Source of the DNA: Xenorhabdus eapokensis
Lineage (GTDB): Bacteria; Pseudomonadota; Gammaproteobacteria; Enterobacterales; Enterobacteriaceae
NCBI RefSeq assembly: GCF_001908105.1
Contig: NZ_MKGQ01000069.1
Span: 1 to 5,052 of the forward strand
Direction of reading: 5' to 3'
Length of the DNA stretch: 5,052 nt
Below, one piece after another: positions 1-5,052 of this stretch. Both the position numbers and the translations under genes were made by a program. A model generated the notes under the pieces. The model did no database searches and was not told the DNA's origin. It saw only the letters and a program-made list of their open reading frames with translations. Within the stretch, counting starts at the first letter, position 1. Each line of letters opens with the position of its first letter.

Positions 1-33
1 CGGATAAGTGTTCAATCAGAGTCATAGGTCAGC

Positions 34-58
34 AATGAGAAGGAAAATAAATCTCATT
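34..58 (+). promoter_or_regulatory. Hairpin with AGGA in its loop, upstream of the small glycine-zipper gene
   Basis: The arms AATGAGA (34-40) and TCTCATT (52-58) are perfectly complementary. They enclose an 11-nt loop that begins with AGGA (41-44), the only Shine-Dalgarno-like element before the ATG at 64. Its spacing to that ATG, about 19 nt, is too long for normal use in linear form. The structure might modulate translation or be chance in AT-rich DNA. No promoter can be assigned in the 63 bases available. Confidence 0.25.
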
Positions 59-63
59 AGATC

Positions 64-396
64 ATGTCATTTGCCTTCATTCAAGAGGTGCTAAAAAAAA
101 GTATGCTCGCGCCCTGGGTAGTTGGTAAACAGGTTGGAGGATGGGTTGGCTCTCAGGCTGGAGTTATGGCGGGTGCTGCGGTTGGAAGTGTTGTTCCAGT
201 AGTTGGTACTGTAGGTGGTGCGATTGTTGGAGGTCTGGCCGGTAGAATAGGAGGAGGGATAGTTGGGCAAGCTGCAGGTGCTGAGGCTGGTCGCAGGGCT
301 GCAGGCTCATCATTTATACGAGATTTGTTTACAAGACCTCCAGTACCAGAAAGTGGAAGTCACTACTGCGGGGATACAGGTTGTAATTATTGTTAA
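64..396 (+). CDS. Glycine-zipper small protein, candidate bacteriocin/microcin-like export substrate
   Basis: This is a 110-residue protein that I do not recognise as a named family. Glycines fall every four residues in two uninterrupted series: G21, 25, 29, 33, 37, 41, then G48, 52, 56, 60, 64, 68, 72, 76. P45 lies between them, which suggests a membrane-inserting helical hairpin. A basic stretch (R77, R78, R86, R91) and a Pro-rich linker follow. The tail has cysteines at 102, 107 and 110, comparable to the cysteine-containing C-terminus of microcin V. There is no classical signal peptide or lipobox. A GG pair at 25-26 has hydrophobic residues at -7 and -12 but Gln at -4, so it is a poor double-glycine leader. 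The ATG at 64 is the first start after an in-frame TAG at 58; an alternative is ATG 103 (M14), which follows AGAGG at 84-88 with long spacing. GC is visibly higher than in the genes downstream, partly because Gly and Ala codons are GC-rich. The bacteriocin role is inferred from the neighbouring exporter; a membrane-stress or structural glycine-zipper protein is the alternative. Confidence 0.6.
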   Translation: MSFAFIQEVLKKSMLAPWVVGKQVGGWVGSQAGVMAGAAVGSVVPVVGTVGGAIVGGLAGRIGGGIVGQAAGAEAGRRAAGSSFIRDLFTRPPVPESGSHYCGDTGCNYC

Positions 397-583: not shown

Positions 584-625
584 TTACTTACTACTTATTA
601 TTTATTACTTATTACTTATTATTTA
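584..625 (+). repeat. Six tandem copies of a 7-bp unit, consensus TTAYTTA
   Basis: Six units run head to tail without a phase break: TTACTTA, CTACTTA, TTATTTA, TTACTTA, TTACTTA, TTATTTA. Variation is confined to the C/T positions 1 and 4 of the unit. The array ends 17 bp before the -35 region of the predicted exporter promoter. Unit length 7 is not a multiple of 3, and a change of copy number would shift upstream elements relative to the promoter by about two thirds of a helical turn. Confidence 0.8.
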
Positions 626-642
626 GTACGTTTTGATTATGA

Positions 643-716: not shown

Positions 717-1877
717 ATGACAATTAATTTTAATATTGAAAAAAAATATTTTTTAGATAATTTTTTTGAAAAAAAACCATATGTATTTAAGAGCATATAT
801 GATGTGAATTTTATAAACAGGAATGAAATAGAAGATATATACAATCGTTCTGACTTAGAATCATTTGAAGGACTTAAGTTAATGTATAATGGTATTCTAG
901 ATAAAAGAGAATACCTAGAATCTTATCAAGATTTAGGGAATACAAGATATAGATATATCTACTCTAAGTTATATGATTATTTAAATGCTGGTGCAACATT
1001 AGTTGCAAATGGTATTATCAACGAACCTAAAATTGATTATTTAGCTAAATGCTGTTCTTCATTGACAGATAGTCATACTTTTTCAAGTATATATTTAGCT
1101 TATGGAGAGAAAAGTTCATTTAAACCCCATTGGGATAGCAGAGATATTTTTGTAATACAACTAACTGGCAAAAAAAGATGGGTTATTTATGAGCCATCAT
1201 TTCAAAACCCTTTGTATGTACATCAATCAAAGGATATGGAAGATATATATCCATGTCCTTCTGAACCATATGATGATTTCGTATTAGAGGCTGGAGATGT
1301 TCTTTATCTTCCTAGAGGTTGGTGGCATAATCCATTACCTGTTGGTGAAGAGACTATACATTTATCTGTTGGAATTTTTCCACCTTATGTCTTTAATTAT
1401 TTATACTGGTTATCAAATAAAATAAATGATTTTGAGATAGGGAGAAAATCTCTTCCTAGATCATGGGTACAAGCTAAAAGTGAAATTGAAGATTTATCAA
1501 AGTTTATTTTTAAATATTTAGGTTCAGAAGAAGCATATAATGAATTTTTACAATCAATTGGCTCAGAACAAAGAATACCAAATAAATTGAATTTAGATTT
1601 ATTTTGCAATAATAAATCTAAATTATCTGATAAAGCATATTTAAGAATAAATTCAAATAATAATTTATCTATAGATGATGGATATGTAATTTGTAATGGG
1701 ATTAAATTAAATTTAGATCATGGCTCTACTGAATTGCTTAAGAAAATTGATGATAATCCATATATTTCTCTTGAAAAATTACTCTCTTTCTTTGAAACTG
1801 AAATGCATGAAAAAATGAAAGATCTGATTTATAATCTTGGCTATCAAAATATATTAGAAATTATAAATGATGTATAA
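717..1877 (+). CDS. JmjC/cupin Fe(II)/2-oxoglutarate-dependent oxygenase (RoxA/YcfD-like), putative peptide hydroxylase
   Basis: Predicted cytoplasmic non-haem iron oxygenase that would use 2-oxoglutarate and O2 to hydroxylate a protein or peptide side chain. Numbered from the Met at 717 (386 residues), the iron triad is visible as H138-W-D140 and distal H204 in the RGWWHNP segment. The intervening TGKKRW (150-155) matches the strand after the HxD motif in YcfD/RoxA proteins and carries basic residues suited to 2-oxoglutarate. The N-terminal FLDNFFEKKPYVF is the usual family opening. The C-terminal 70 or so residues resemble the winged-helix domain of this family. Family members hydroxylate arginine or histidine of ribosomal proteins, but placement in an exporter operon suggests a dedicated substrate here, possibly the small glycine-zipper protein. 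The frame stays open up to ATG 678, adding 13 residues, but that start coincides with the predicted transcription start. No clear Shine-Dalgarno precedes either start. The stop overlaps the next gene by 11 nt. The beginning of the gene is dense in A and T runs. Confidence 0.85.
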   Translation: MTINFNIEKKYFLDNFFEKKPYVFKSIYDVNFINRNEIEDIYNRSDLESFEGLKLMYNGILDKREYLESYQDLGNTRYRYIYSKLYDYLNAGATLVANGIINEPKIDYLAKCCSSLTDSHTFSSIYLAYGEKSSFKPHWDSRDIFVIQLTGKKRWVIYEPSFQNPLYVHQSKDMEDIYPCPSEPYDDFVLEAGDVLYLPRGWWHNPLPVGEETIHLSVGIFPPYVFNYLYWLSNKINDFEIGRKSLPRSWVQAKSEIEDLSKFIFKYLGSEEAYNEFLQSIGSEQRIPNKLNLDLFCNNKSKLSDKAYLRINSNNNLSIDDGYVICNGIKLNLDHGSTELLKKIDDNPYISLEKLLSFFETEMHEKMKDLIYNLGYQNILEIINDV

Positions 1878-3138
1878 AGACGACCTTTTTCGTCAAGAAG
1901 CTTTGAAAAAAAAATCAATACCTATGGCTGGCCAAATGGTTTTGACCAGTCCATTTGTTTTTACTGTATTGACATACCTTTCCAGCTTGCTTGTAGTATT
2001 TATTATTATATTTATCATTTTTACTGAATATTCTAGAAAAACATCAATAAAAGGTCAAATTTATCCTAAAGATGGAATGTCTAAGATTTATTCTAAAGAA
2101 ATTGGTGTTATTAGTGATATTAAGGTTAAGGATGGGCAATTTGTTAAAAAAGGAGATGTTTTAGGTGTTATTTATAAGGCTCAGTATATAAATGAAGGAA
2201 CATTGCAGGATAGTTTAAAAGAACAAGCAATTCTAAAAAAAATTACATTAATCAATGAGATCAATAAAATGGAATCTCTTCAAGTTAACCGAATTGAGTT
2301 GCTTAAAAATAATCTTAATGGTTTAATTAAACAAAAAGAGCAAATAAAAATTCAAATAAAAATACAAAAAAAGAGATTAAACGATTTAAGGGAAAATACA
2401 TATAGATATAGAAGTTTAGAAAAAAAAGGTTTTATATCAAAAGAATATATGTCTTCGATTGAGGGTAATGAGTTAGAACAATTAGAAAGACTAAATTTAA
2501 CTAAAAAGGACCTTATAGAAATAGATCGTTTAATTACTGAAAAAGAATTGGAAATTGAGGATGCTCCATTAAAAAAAATTATAGAACGACAAGAAATAGA
2601 AAGAGTATTGTCTTCTGTTAACCAAGAAATCTTAAATATTGAAAGTCAGACTGAGTCTGTAATAAGAGCCAATTCATCCGGCTTTGTTAATATTAACAAT
2701 TTTGAGTTAGGCTCATATGTGGATCAATCAACATTACTATTGAGTATAGTTCCTAGTAACCAAGATCTTGTTCTTCATTTATATGTACCTAATCAGTCTA
2801 TAGGATTTATAAAAATCGGAGATGTTGTAAATATAAAATATTCAGCATATCCATATCAAAAGTTTGGAATATTCAAGGCAAAAGTTACATCTGTTAGTCG
2901 ATCTGCTATGGCTGCTCAGGAAATAAAAAGTATAGGAAGTGTATTTCCAGCATTAAATGCCACAAATGAACCAGTTTACTTAATAAAGGCTGAGCTTGAA
3001 AAACAATATATTGAAATTAATAAAATCAAGAAGCCATTGGAAATTGGAATGACTATTGATGCGGACATTTTGCATGAAAGAAGAAAATTATATGAGTGGA
3101 TGTTTGAACTTTTATTTTCAATAAATGATAGTATTTAA
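1867..3138 (+). CDS. HlyD/CvaA-family membrane-fusion (periplasmic adaptor) protein of a type I peptide exporter
   Basis: This subunit would link the inner-membrane ABC exporter to an outer-membrane TolC channel. The 423-residue protein has a short cytoplasmic N-terminus, one strong transmembrane helix (about 30-53) and a half-lipoyl segment (about 62-105, with KVKDGQFVKKGDVLG). A long charged coiled-coil hairpin follows (about 113-260), then the second half-lipoyl and beta-barrel region (about 265-345). The conserved end runs from PLEIGMTIDADI to LYEWMFELLFS. Order and length fit CvaA-type adaptors of colicin V/microcin export. It starts at ATG 1867 inside the end of the oxygenase gene (a second ATG follows at 1870), so translation is probably coupled. 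An A9 run (1906-1914) lies at codons 14-16. The gene appears intact. Confidence 0.9.
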   Translation: MMYKDDLFRQEALKKKSIPMAGQMVLTSPFVFTVLTYLSSLLVVFIIIFIIFTEYSRKTSIKGQIYPKDGMSKIYSKEIGVISDIKVKDGQFVKKGDVLGVIYKAQYINEGTLQDSLKEQAILKKITLINEINKMESLQVNRIELLKNNLNGLIKQKEQIKIQIKIQKKRLNDLRENTYRYRSLEKKGFISKEYMSSIEGNELEQLERLNLTKKDLIEIDRLITEKELEIEDAPLKKIIERQEIERVLSSVNQEILNIESQTESVIRANSSGFVNINNFELGSYVDQSTLLLSIVPSNQDLVLHLYVPNQSIGFIKIGDVVNIKYSAYPYQKFGIFKAKVTSVSRSAMAAQEIKSIGSVFPALNATNEPVYLIKAELEKQYIEINKIKKPLEIGMTIDADILHERRKLYEWMFELLFSINDSI

Positions 3139-5002
3139 AATGATAAAATTGAATCAGATTAGATTTTGGTCTTCTAATAATTTGCCAGTTATATTGCAAA
3201 CAGAAATGGCTGAATGTGGTTTAGCTTGCCTCGCGTCCATTGCTTCTTTTCACGGGTATCAGATTGATTTACTTTCACTTAGGAGAAAGTTTTCTGTACC
3301 CCTTACTGGTATAAATCTTAATGATATTACTAACTATGCTAAAGAACTAAATCTATCCTATAGAGCAATTCGTTTAGATATTGATGAAATAGAACAACTG
3401 ACATTACCATGTCTTCTCCACTGGGGGCTTAATCATTTTGTAGTGCTAAAAAAGGTATTATCAAAAAAAATAGTTATTATGGATCCAAGTATTGGTATAA
3501 GATACTTAAGCTTTGATGATTTTTCCGATTATTTTACAGGTATCGCTGTTGAATTTTGGCCGAATAATGATTTCAAAAAGAATATTTTAAAAGAACGAAT
3601 AAATGTTTCAAAGTTTATTAGAAATATATCAGGAGTGAAAAAATCAATAATAAAAATATTATTATTAGCTTTTGCACTAGAGTTTTTTGCGCTTATTAGT
3701 CCATATTATATGCAATTAATAATTGACCATGGGGTTGTTTCTGAAGACAAAAATTTAATATTATTGTTATCGTTTAGATTTGGCATATTACTAATTTTTG
3801 AACAAGTTATAACTATTGTGCAGAGTTTATTAACTACATATATTAGTACTAATTTGAACATACAATGGAAATCAAATGTTTTTACACATTTAATCAATTT
3901 GCCAATAGATTTTTTTAGAAAAAGGCACTTAGGTGATATAATATCAAGATTTTCTTCTATTGATAGTATACAAAATACTTTAACATCTTCTTTTTTTATC
4001 TCTATATGTAATAGTTTTGTATCTGTAATTACGATTTTTATTATGCTAATGTATAATTTTAAATTGACTTTAATATCAATAATTACACTTCTTATTTATA
4101 TGGTCATACGAATTGCATGGTATTTTCCTTTAAGGGAAATTTCTAAAGAAAATATCGCTCATTCAGCAAAACTAAGTTCTAACTTTATGGAAACAATAAG
4201 AGGGATAAAAACGATAAAAATTTTCGGAAAAGAAAGTTATAGATATAACTCTTGGTTATCATTATCTATTGATACACTTAATTCAAGTCTTAAAACTCAA
4301 AGATTATCCTTGCTCTTTTCTTTTGTTAATAAAATATTATTTGGAATTCAAAATGTATTGATAGTGTATTTAGGTACACTTCTTATATTTGATAATGTAT
4401 TTACTATTGGAATCTTAATGTCATTTTTGGCATATAAATCCCAATTTGAGTCTAGAGTTCTATCTCTTATTGATCAGTTTATTTCTTTGAAAATGCTAGG
4501 AATTCATCTTGAGAGATTATCGGATATTGTCCTAACTGAAACAGAGTTTAATTCTGATTTATCTCTGAAAGAAAAAGAAATATCGTCAAGTAATGTAAAA
4601 GTTAAAAATCTCTGTTTTAAATATAATGATAACTCCCCTTATTTGATAAAGGATTTATCTTTCAATATCCCGGCTGGAGGTTCTGCTGCTATAATAGGGG
4701 CTTCGGGATGTGGTAAGTCAACATTGCTTAATTTAATGATGGGTAGTATTCTTCCTACAGAAGGGAAAGTCATAATTGGAAATGTTGCAGTTAATGAATC
4801 TCATATTAAAAGCATCAGGGATAGTATAGGTTATGTTGCACAAGATGATGCATTATTTTCTGGCTCCATTATGGATAATATAACTTTTTTCGATGAAAAA
4901 CCTGATATAGAAAAATCGGTAAATTGTGCTAAAATAGCTGCAATACATGATGATAAGTCCTCAAGAGAAATTAATTGCAAATTGGTCACCATAACCAGCT
5001 AA
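3125..5002 (+). CDS. CvaB-type peptidase C39-containing ABC exporter, 3'-truncated in the ATPase domain
   Basis: It would cleave leader peptides and pump the product across the inner membrane. The C39 peptidase domain (about 20-145) keeps its Gln (Q25), Cys (C31 in AECGLACLA), His (H104) and Asp (D120), so it looks catalytically complete. Transmembrane helices occupy about 172-440. The nucleotide-binding domain starts near 490 with Walker A GASGCGKST (525-533) and the Q-loop (Q573 in YVAQDD). Homology ends at IHDD (607-610, base 4954), then 15 unrelated residues lead to a stop. Signature LSGGQ, Walker B, D-loop and switch His, roughly the last 90-100 residues of a family protein of about 700, are missing. 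Transport activity is therefore unlikely. Start 3125 overlaps the adaptor gene by 14 nt and gives active-site numbering close to CvaB; ATG 3140, just after the adaptor stop, is equally possible. Neither has a clear Shine-Dalgarno. Confidence 0.85.
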   Translation: MIVFKMIKLNQIRFWSSNNLPVILQTEMAECGLACLASIASFHGYQIDLLSLRRKFSVPLTGINLNDITNYAKELNLSYRAIRLDIDEIEQLTLPCLLHWGLNHFVVLKKVLSKKIVIMDPSIGIRYLSFDDFSDYFTGIAVEFWPNNDFKKNILKERINVSKFIRNISGVKKSIIKILLLAFALEFFALISPYYMQLIIDHGVVSEDKNLILLLSFRFGILLIFEQVITIVQSLLTTYISTNLNIQWKSNVFTHLINLPIDFFRKRHLGDIISRFSSIDSIQNTLTSSFFISICNSFVSVITIFIMLMYNFKLTLISIITLLIYMVIRIAWYFPLREISKENIAHSAKLSSNFMETIRGIKTIKIFGKESYRYNSWLSLSIDTLNSSLKTQRLSLLFSFVNKILFGIQNVLIVYLGTLLIFDNVFTIGILMSFLAYKSQFESRVLSLIDQFISLKMLGIHLERLSDIVLTETEFNSDLSLKEKEISSSNVKVKNLCFKYNDNSPYLIKDLSFNIPAGGSAAIIGASGCGKSTLLNLMMGSILPTEGKVIIGNVAVNESHIKSIRDSIGYVAQDDALFSGSIMDNITFFDEKPDIEKSVNCAKIAAIHDDKSSREINCKLVTITS

Positions 5003-5052
5003 TAATGTATTGATCTCATATTCCATGGTTTCCTGAGTCCAGGTGATAAAAC
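4961..5052 (-). CDS. Possible 3' end of an unidentified reverse-strand gene
   Basis: On the minus strand a frame is open from the window edge (first full codon at 5050) to a TGA at 4961-4963, giving 29 residues that end in LLAGYGDQFAINFS. It begins only a few bases after the point where homology of the ABC exporter is lost, and its base composition is less AT-rich than the operon. It could be the C-terminus of a transposase or other gene brought in by the rearrangement, but I recognise no family and see no terminal inverted repeat. Being this short, the open frame could be chance. Confidence 0.35.
   Translation of the reverse strand, partial: FITWTQETMEYEINTLLAGYGDQFAINFS

Follow-up and report, generated by a model that had tools for sequence, protein, structure and literature searches.

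The 5,052-nt window analysed here (the whole stretch of DNA) very probably holds what is left of a class II microcin operon with an associated JmjC gene, decayed in this Xenorhabdus, a nematode-symbiotic bacterium, and the 110-residue ORF on its forward strand is the remnant of a microcin cut by an insertion sequence (IS). To the fuller reading, in which the C-terminal tail of the microcin would be hydroxylated before export and a membrane protein would provide immunity, we assign a probability of about 0.7. Directly observed are both IS junctions, the relatives of the peptide, the linkage of the genes, the association of the tail with the JmjC gene and the conserved Fe(II) triad.

The chimeric ORF and its neighbours

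The layout is summarized in Table 1. The sequence-only reading had described six glycines (21, 25, 29, 33, 37, 41) followed by eight (48, 52 and so on to 76), with Pro 45 between the series and cysteines at 102, 107 and 110, and all of these positions are confirmed. The periodicity of the glycines exceeds chance: when residues 18-92 were shuffled 20,000 times, only 9 shuffles had eight or more glycines in series at i+4, and none had two such series (at least eight and at least six). The ORF has 23 glycines in total, the others being interspersed among the two i+4 series.

Table 1. Features of the window
Positions	Strand	Feature	Basis or remark
1..116	.	IS end (DDE_Tnp_1 transposase type); inverted terminal repeat 98-116	genome matches and the L093 element
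64..396	+	reported ORF	chimera: IS end (residues 1-17) and microcin remnant
117..396	+	microcin core and tail without leader, 5' part removed by IS	alignment with X. kozodoii and G014
124..186	+	glycine series 1, residues 21-41	
205..291	+	glycine series 2, residues 48-76	
355..393	+	tail GSHYCGDTGCNYC, a pair of G-x-[N/D/H]-Y units; putative oxygenase substrate	
717..1877	+	JmjC oxygenase, ROXA-like, 386 aa from ATG 717 (listed ORF start 678), frame intact	Pfam
1867..3138	+	HlyD-family adaptor, frame intact	Pfam
3140..4953	+	C39-peptidase ABC exporter, truncated, without ABC signature and Walker B (listed ORF 3125-5002)	Pfam
4954..5052	.	IS630-family element end	97% to NZ_LN681228 94936-95034, annotated IS630 family transposase

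Window 1-120 is matched in 21 of 30 Xenorhabdus genomes, in some of them through the short end repeat alone, and in 9 of the 21 the match spans window 1-116. The repeat at 98-116 equals both ends, in inverted orientation and with 0 mismatches, of an element in locus L093 that encodes a DDE_Tnp_1 transposase (Pfam). Because window 1-116 recurs across Xenorhabdus genomes and its end repeat flanks a transposase element, the ORF is IS-encoded through residue 17 and into codon 18, and this part does not belong to the peptide. A double-glycine-type leader is absent from the window (0 leader-like ORFs). At the far end, the exporter ORF is broken at 4953/4954 by the IS630-family element. The near search of plasmids matched the IS630 end alone, the near phage search matched nothing, and the distant plasmid search with window 1-120 gave no match.

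Pfam assigned the ORF to 0 families, and the Rfam search likewise returned 0 families. A protein search with the ORF gave seven matches; one is a true relative, a 76-aa protein of X. ehlersii (P0001), and the other six were dismissed as glycine-rich or weak. By eye, a short run of TTATTACTTA-type repeats is seen at window 590-630, between the peptide ORF and the JmjC gene.

Pfam recovered all the neighbours named in the sequence-only reading: the JmjC oxygenase, HlyD and the C39-peptidase ABC exporter, the last in truncated form. The homologous exporter of X. kozodoii has 697 aa and retains the ABC signature that the window lacks. In one further locus (L125), a precursor and a JmjC gene are found with no HlyD or exporter within 13 kb.

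Leader-bearing relatives and a candidate immunity gene

The nearest named relatives come from Xenorhabdus, namely X. ehlersii P0001 and a contig of X. kozodoii. Among the 30 Xenorhabdus genomes the peptide was found in two, X. kozodoii and G014. The G014 precursor has 123 aa and begins MRELTIKEFDLVSGA, a double-glycine-type leader; leader-bearing precursors are also present in three Photorhabdus genomes (G328, G387, G421). In G328 and G387 the gene order is membrane protein, precursor, JmjC, HlyD, C39 ABC. A 142-aa membrane protein likewise lies directly upstream of the G014 precursor. Since the G014 and G328 copies are 41% identical and both stand upstream of the precursor, we regard this small protein as a candidate immunity protein. 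Small membrane ORFs occur near the precursor in further loci, and no immunity-gene candidate was found in the window. Thus, the sequence-only reading was right about a bacteriocin-type zipper peptide with relatives beside C39-ABC, HlyD and JmjC genes, but incomplete in that the window copy is decayed, leaderless and IS-encoded at its N-terminus.

Residues 1-51 of the G014 precursor match Pfam MccV (PF17508) with an E-value of 0.0021 and 19.1 bits, under the cut-off of 27. Membership of a housekeeping glycine-zipper family, an alternative raised together with the bacteriocin proposal, was checked by profile and none of these families reached the Pfam cut-off: PF05433 and PF13488 stayed below the gathering score (18.4 versus 24.2 bits for G014, 18.1 versus 25 bits for G328). 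A protein search with the G014 precursor gave 26 matches at E<=1, the best at 5.9e-3 and none convincing; such peptides are probably easily missed by annotation. The AlphaFold model of the precursor has helices at 29-55 and 59-92, but it is poor (pLDDT 47.8) and was given no weight.

Insertion sequences and decay

The X. kozodoii precursor has also lost its 5' part, through a different repeat: bases 1-99 of its contig are present at six sites of its own genome, its own site included. Not one of the six loci from Xenorhabdus and Photorhabdus is intact as assembled. The leader is missing in the window and in X. kozodoii; G421 has its HlyD gene split by a transposase gene; and the G014 exporter lies as two pieces on two contigs, the G328 exporter is matched as three pieces close to a contig end and the G387 JmjC is cut off at a contig end, the breaks at contig ends being possibly assembly artefacts. 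Three loci found elsewhere (L109, L116, L155) have JmjC, HlyD and exporter each as a one-piece match, together with a tail-bearing precursor. IS decay was also noticed on two A. baumannii plasmids (L147, L148), in which ISAba10 or ISAba13 lies before or after the cupin gene of the same cassette.

In the pairs compared, dN/dS is 0.15-0.25 for JmjC and 0.15-0.22 for HlyD. For the microcin core it is 0.67 between the window and X. kozodoii, over just 92 codons. Given the IS-cut start of the precursor and the cut exporter, the window locus is probably silent.

The JmjC oxygenase

The JmjC protein of the window scores 114 bits against JmjC_2 and 30.2 bits against ROXA-like_wH (cut-off 22 for both), and NCBIfam returned 0 families. 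All 53 aligned relatives keep its Fe(II)-binding triad H-x-D...H (H151, D153, H217). The AlphaFold model has a pLDDT of 91.5, and the nearest solved structures, by sequence, Foldseek and VIA-align, are NO66, MINA53 and YcfD. These enzymes hydroxylate His or Arg of ribosomal proteins, the target of RoxA/YcfD being an arginine of uL16; FIH, a related enzyme, acts on Asn, Asp and His. The accessible text of PMC12710340 describes fusions of JmjC domains to RiPP recognition elements, and bacterial homologues in RiPP-like contexts. By analogy, the winged-helix domain at the C-terminus (PF20514) might have the leader as its binding partner.

At E<=1e-5, a JmjC match is found in 29 of the 30 Xenorhabdus genomes, mostly at ~30% identity, the RoxA-like copies being no more than distantly similar; the microcin type (79-92% identity) is confined to two of them, G001 and G014. 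The nearest named relative of the window protein is that of Xenorhabdus sp. TS4, at 98%, and the G328 protein is identical to that of Photorhabdus akhurstii at 387 of 388 positions. Relatives of 28-32% identity in G109, G212 and G318 were not counted as microcin loci, having no adjoining HlyD or C39 exporter. Another JmjC type, 28-32% identical, lies with a ThiF-like adenylyltransferase, a ThiS-like protein and an MFS transporter at L104:2301-6667 and L105:229-4615 (labels assigned by eye); judged by this gene content, the two loci represent a different RiPP-like system. A JmjC gene of the ThiF-associated type also stands alone at L103:64-1047.

A tandem C-terminal tail associated with the JmjC gene

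Two G-x-[N/D/H]-Y units close the tail-bearing precursors; they read GSHYCGDTGCNYC in the window, GSHYCGDTSGCDYC in G014, GTNYCNSSGSNYCH in G328, GNDYCEDGGNY in Acinetobacter, GSNYDCGDGTDYQG, GSDYGDGCNYQ and GSNYGDGCNYQ in Pasteurellaceae, and GANYQDGSNYQK in G1426. Asn, Asp or His fills position three of every unit in the matching tails. Long glycine zippers form the cores of the Xenorhabdus, Photorhabdus and G1426 peptides; those of Acinetobacter and of three peptides from Pasteurellaceae loci have no long glycine run. Cysteines number from 0 (G1426) to 3 per whole tail-bearing precursor, and disulfides were therefore rejected as a conserved feature. Hence, the tail is conserved across precursors, unlike the zipper and the cysteines. 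The sequence-only reading had put its weight on a cysteine tail with neighbouring His, Asp and Asn residues: the cysteines are indeed present but are not the conserved part, and the tandem pattern was recognized only in part.

The tail occurs in 15 of the 20 loci with a microcin-type JmjC; it is absent from all 20 JmjC-free Xenorhabdus C39-exporter loci and from all six loci with another JmjC type. A first scoring had given 13/17, 0/20 and 0/4, respectively; three Acinetobacter records (L148, L151, L152) and two other-type loci were scored after these 17. Fisher's test of 13/17 versus 0/24 returns 1.4e-7, a value that overstates independence, since many of the 20 JmjC loci are near-copies. Within Xenorhabdus, the tail is present in 3/3 JmjC loci versus 0/20 controls (p 5.6e-4). 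The loci collected by then contain 6,201 distinct closed frames of 40 aa or longer; 12 of these have the tail, and all 12 lie beside a microcin-type JmjC gene. Among leader-like ORFs, 13 of the 20 in the 17 JmjC loci bear the tail, and none of the 15 in the controls does; 8 of the 20 control loci gave no leader-like ORF, making the control thinner than 20. The tail pattern was fixed late, after most loci were known, and G1426 was discovered only after a first form of the pattern had been noted.

Five of the 20 JmjC loci lack the tail. The Neisseria precursor in L110 is frameshifted and keeps GTDY as its second unit, with GNGY as the first; in L111 the JmjC gene is split; in L126 and L149 the contig or record ends within it; and in L148 an IS lies upstream and JmjC is partial. 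Moreover, among the leader-like ORFs of the 17 JmjC loci scored first, 7 of 20 are tail-free. At least four of these look like real precursors (L110 9246-9593, L111 McbC, L116 6107-6334 and L123 10284-10631), so the tail would not be on every peptide of such loci.

Other peptide genes were noticed in these loci. L110:9246-9593, from an N. gonorrhoeae record, encodes a second leader peptide of the zipper type, whose end is rich in cysteine and lacks the G-x-[N/D/H]-Y tail. In G1426 (L155 ~9410-9800, minus strand), a second, frameshifted leader-bearing gene lies directly upstream of JmjC and has an end with DY, GSDY and GTNY units. The Xenorhabdus C39 loci without JmjC (L127-L145) hold several kinds of unannotated-looking MKELN/MKELT leader peptides.

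Taxonomic distribution

With the JmjC protein as bait, 6 of 392 genomes of the family matched at E<=1e-12, G328 and G387 among them, and the microcin type was present in 3 of 12 genomes of the genus of these two. A tblastn search of the plasmid collection gave 97 records, mostly of distant JmjC types; 11 carry the microcin type, eight from Acinetobacter, two chromosome-size records from N. gonorrhoeae and one from Moraxella. The loci examined from this collection were H2, H4, H5, H6, H8, H10, H12 and H14, with H3, H7 and H9 left out. On pMC23.1, a 61-aa precursor with the same type of leader stands immediately before JmjC. The JmjC gene is present in 5 of 140 genomes from the family of G963, with leader-bearing ORFs next to it at four loci; matches to named Pasteurellaceae proteins are the reason for taking this family as Pasteurellaceae. 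The phylum scan added one locus, G1426.

Altogether, tail-bearing precursors lie beside JmjC in Xenorhabdus, Photorhabdus, Acinetobacter plasmids, Pasteurellaceae and one 6.6-Mb proteobacterium. Further JmjC relatives exist in Pseudomonas, Burkholderia and Achromobacter. Even draws of genomes gave 1/369 for the class, 2/394 for the order and 2/398 for the phylum, each count including G001; with so few matches, the microcin-type JmjC locus appears to be rare. Viral contigs gave 51 pattern matches and 0 relatives.

Proposed mechanism and alternatives

We think it likely that the JmjC protein acts on the tail. Tail hydroxylation is favoured by the association of tail and JmjC gene, the conserved Fe triad, the hydroxylase-like fold, the presence of Asn, Asp or His at the variable position and the published JmjC hydroxylation of another RiPP. 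Weighing against it are the JmjC loci and precursors without the tail, locus L125 with no exporter, the late choice of the pattern, the thin control, the poor precursor model and the protection given by mcaB alone in A. baumannii. An intact precursor would comprise a double-glycine-type leader, a glycine-zipper core, expected to fold as a two-helix hairpin, and the tandem G-x-[N/D/H]-Y tail. The ROXA-like JmjC protein would hydroxylate the Asn, Asp or His of each unit in the cytoplasm, Tyr being a less likely site. The C39 exporter with HlyD, and presumably TolC, would then cleave the leader and secrete the peptide, which may act on competing bacteria by killing them, and the small membrane protein would confer immunity on the producer. 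In the window strain, the precursor lost its start to one IS, and the exporter was cut by an IS630-family element.

The JmjC protein could instead be an immunity factor that modifies the producer's own target, the tail being a mere receptor- or target-binding element. Its fold is nearest to that of ribosomal hydroxylases, which modify ribosomal proteins. In the accessible text of PMC10333792, moreover, mcaB alone protected A. baumannii cells from Mcc17978 and is proposed as the immunity gene. Nevertheless, G014 and G328 each have a distinct small membrane protein ahead of the precursor, small membrane ORFs lie near other precursors, and the tail accompanies the JmjC gene across different cores, which makes this an unlikely explanation. 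We are more doubtful still of an unmodified class IIa-like microcin with disulfide-bonded cysteines, in which the role of JmjC would be unrelated. The three cysteines of the window tail and the MccV match of the G014 precursor, weak and below cut-off, would agree with it, but cysteines vary from 0 to 3 while [N/D/H]-Y persists, and the linkage to JmjC is kept in distant genomes. Finally, the 110-aa ORF might be a working leaderless peptide as it is, IS-encoded start included, given that its frame is open across the IS junction from an ATG at 64. This we consider highly improbable, as its first 17 residues are IS sequence, the leader seen in G014 and Photorhabdus is missing and the exporter is cut.

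Hydroxylation of the tail thus remains the preferred reading. A broader version of it, to which we give even odds, is a mobile family in which JmjC would hydroxylate a portable tandem G-x-[Asn/Asp/His]-Y tail attached to different cores, the tail serving as a new post-translational tag for uptake or target recognition, with a role like that of the siderophore tail in class IIb microcins. These cores would include long glycine zippers and short zipper-free peptides, in Enterobacterales, Pasteurellaceae, Moraxellaceae, probably Neisseriaceae and another proteobacterial lineage.

Comparison with known systems

The window JmjC is distant from NO66, MINA53 and YcfD/RoxA, at 14-19% identity. Microcin V (PF17508) resembles the family in that the G014 leader and the glycine-rich start of its core match weakly, and in its C39 exporter and HlyD, although the G014 score is under the Pfam cut-off. 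To our knowledge, the MccV operon has no JmjC gene and MccV has no tandem G-x-[N/D/H]-Y tail.

The closest counterpart in gene order is mcaABCD (Mcc17978) of A. baumannii ATCC 17978, which, as far as the accessible text of PMC10333792 describes it, comprises a microcin with a GA-ending leader, a cupin-like gene, HlyD and a SunT-type exporter, and inhibits E. coli. Precursor, cupin/JmjC, HlyD and C39 ABC follow one another in the same order in the window, so that the gene layout is not new. Nevertheless, the cupin of mcaABCD is proposed there as immunity, the window copy is IS-broken and the likeness described here is one of gene order. Mcc1229 (mctABC) of E. coli is likewise a microcin operon with a cupin gene, described in the accessible part of PMC8853679 as needed for activity; however, the MctC-type protein (pHUSEC41-3) is 26% identical over 235 aa, and the MctA-like peptide ends cysteine-rich, without the tail. 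In biphenomycin, the JmjC oxygenase BipG/BpmG hydroxylates an ornithine of a RiPP, according to the portions of PMC12707348 and PMC12257519 available to us. This too is a JmjC oxygenase acting on a ribosomal peptide, but precursor, enzymes and residue differ, and the likeness is drawn from the published description.

Open-licence PMC literature yielded no JmjC-modified (hydroxylated) class II microcin, no G-x-[N/D/H]-Y tail and no Xenorhabdus class II microcin. Thus, the gene order and antibacterial action (mcaABCD) and JmjC hydroxylation of a RiPP are already known, and what looks new is that a tandem G-x-[N/D/H]-Y tail goes with the JmjC gene. Such a tail provides a simple sequence rule for finding more of these peptides, and the role of the unexplained 'cupin' gene in the Mcc17978 and Mcc1229 loci becomes directly testable. 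In the accessible text of PMC6795089, class IIa microcins are described as modification-free and some class IIb microcins as carrying a siderophore. If true, a tail that travels with JmjC would be a third kind of microcin maturation.
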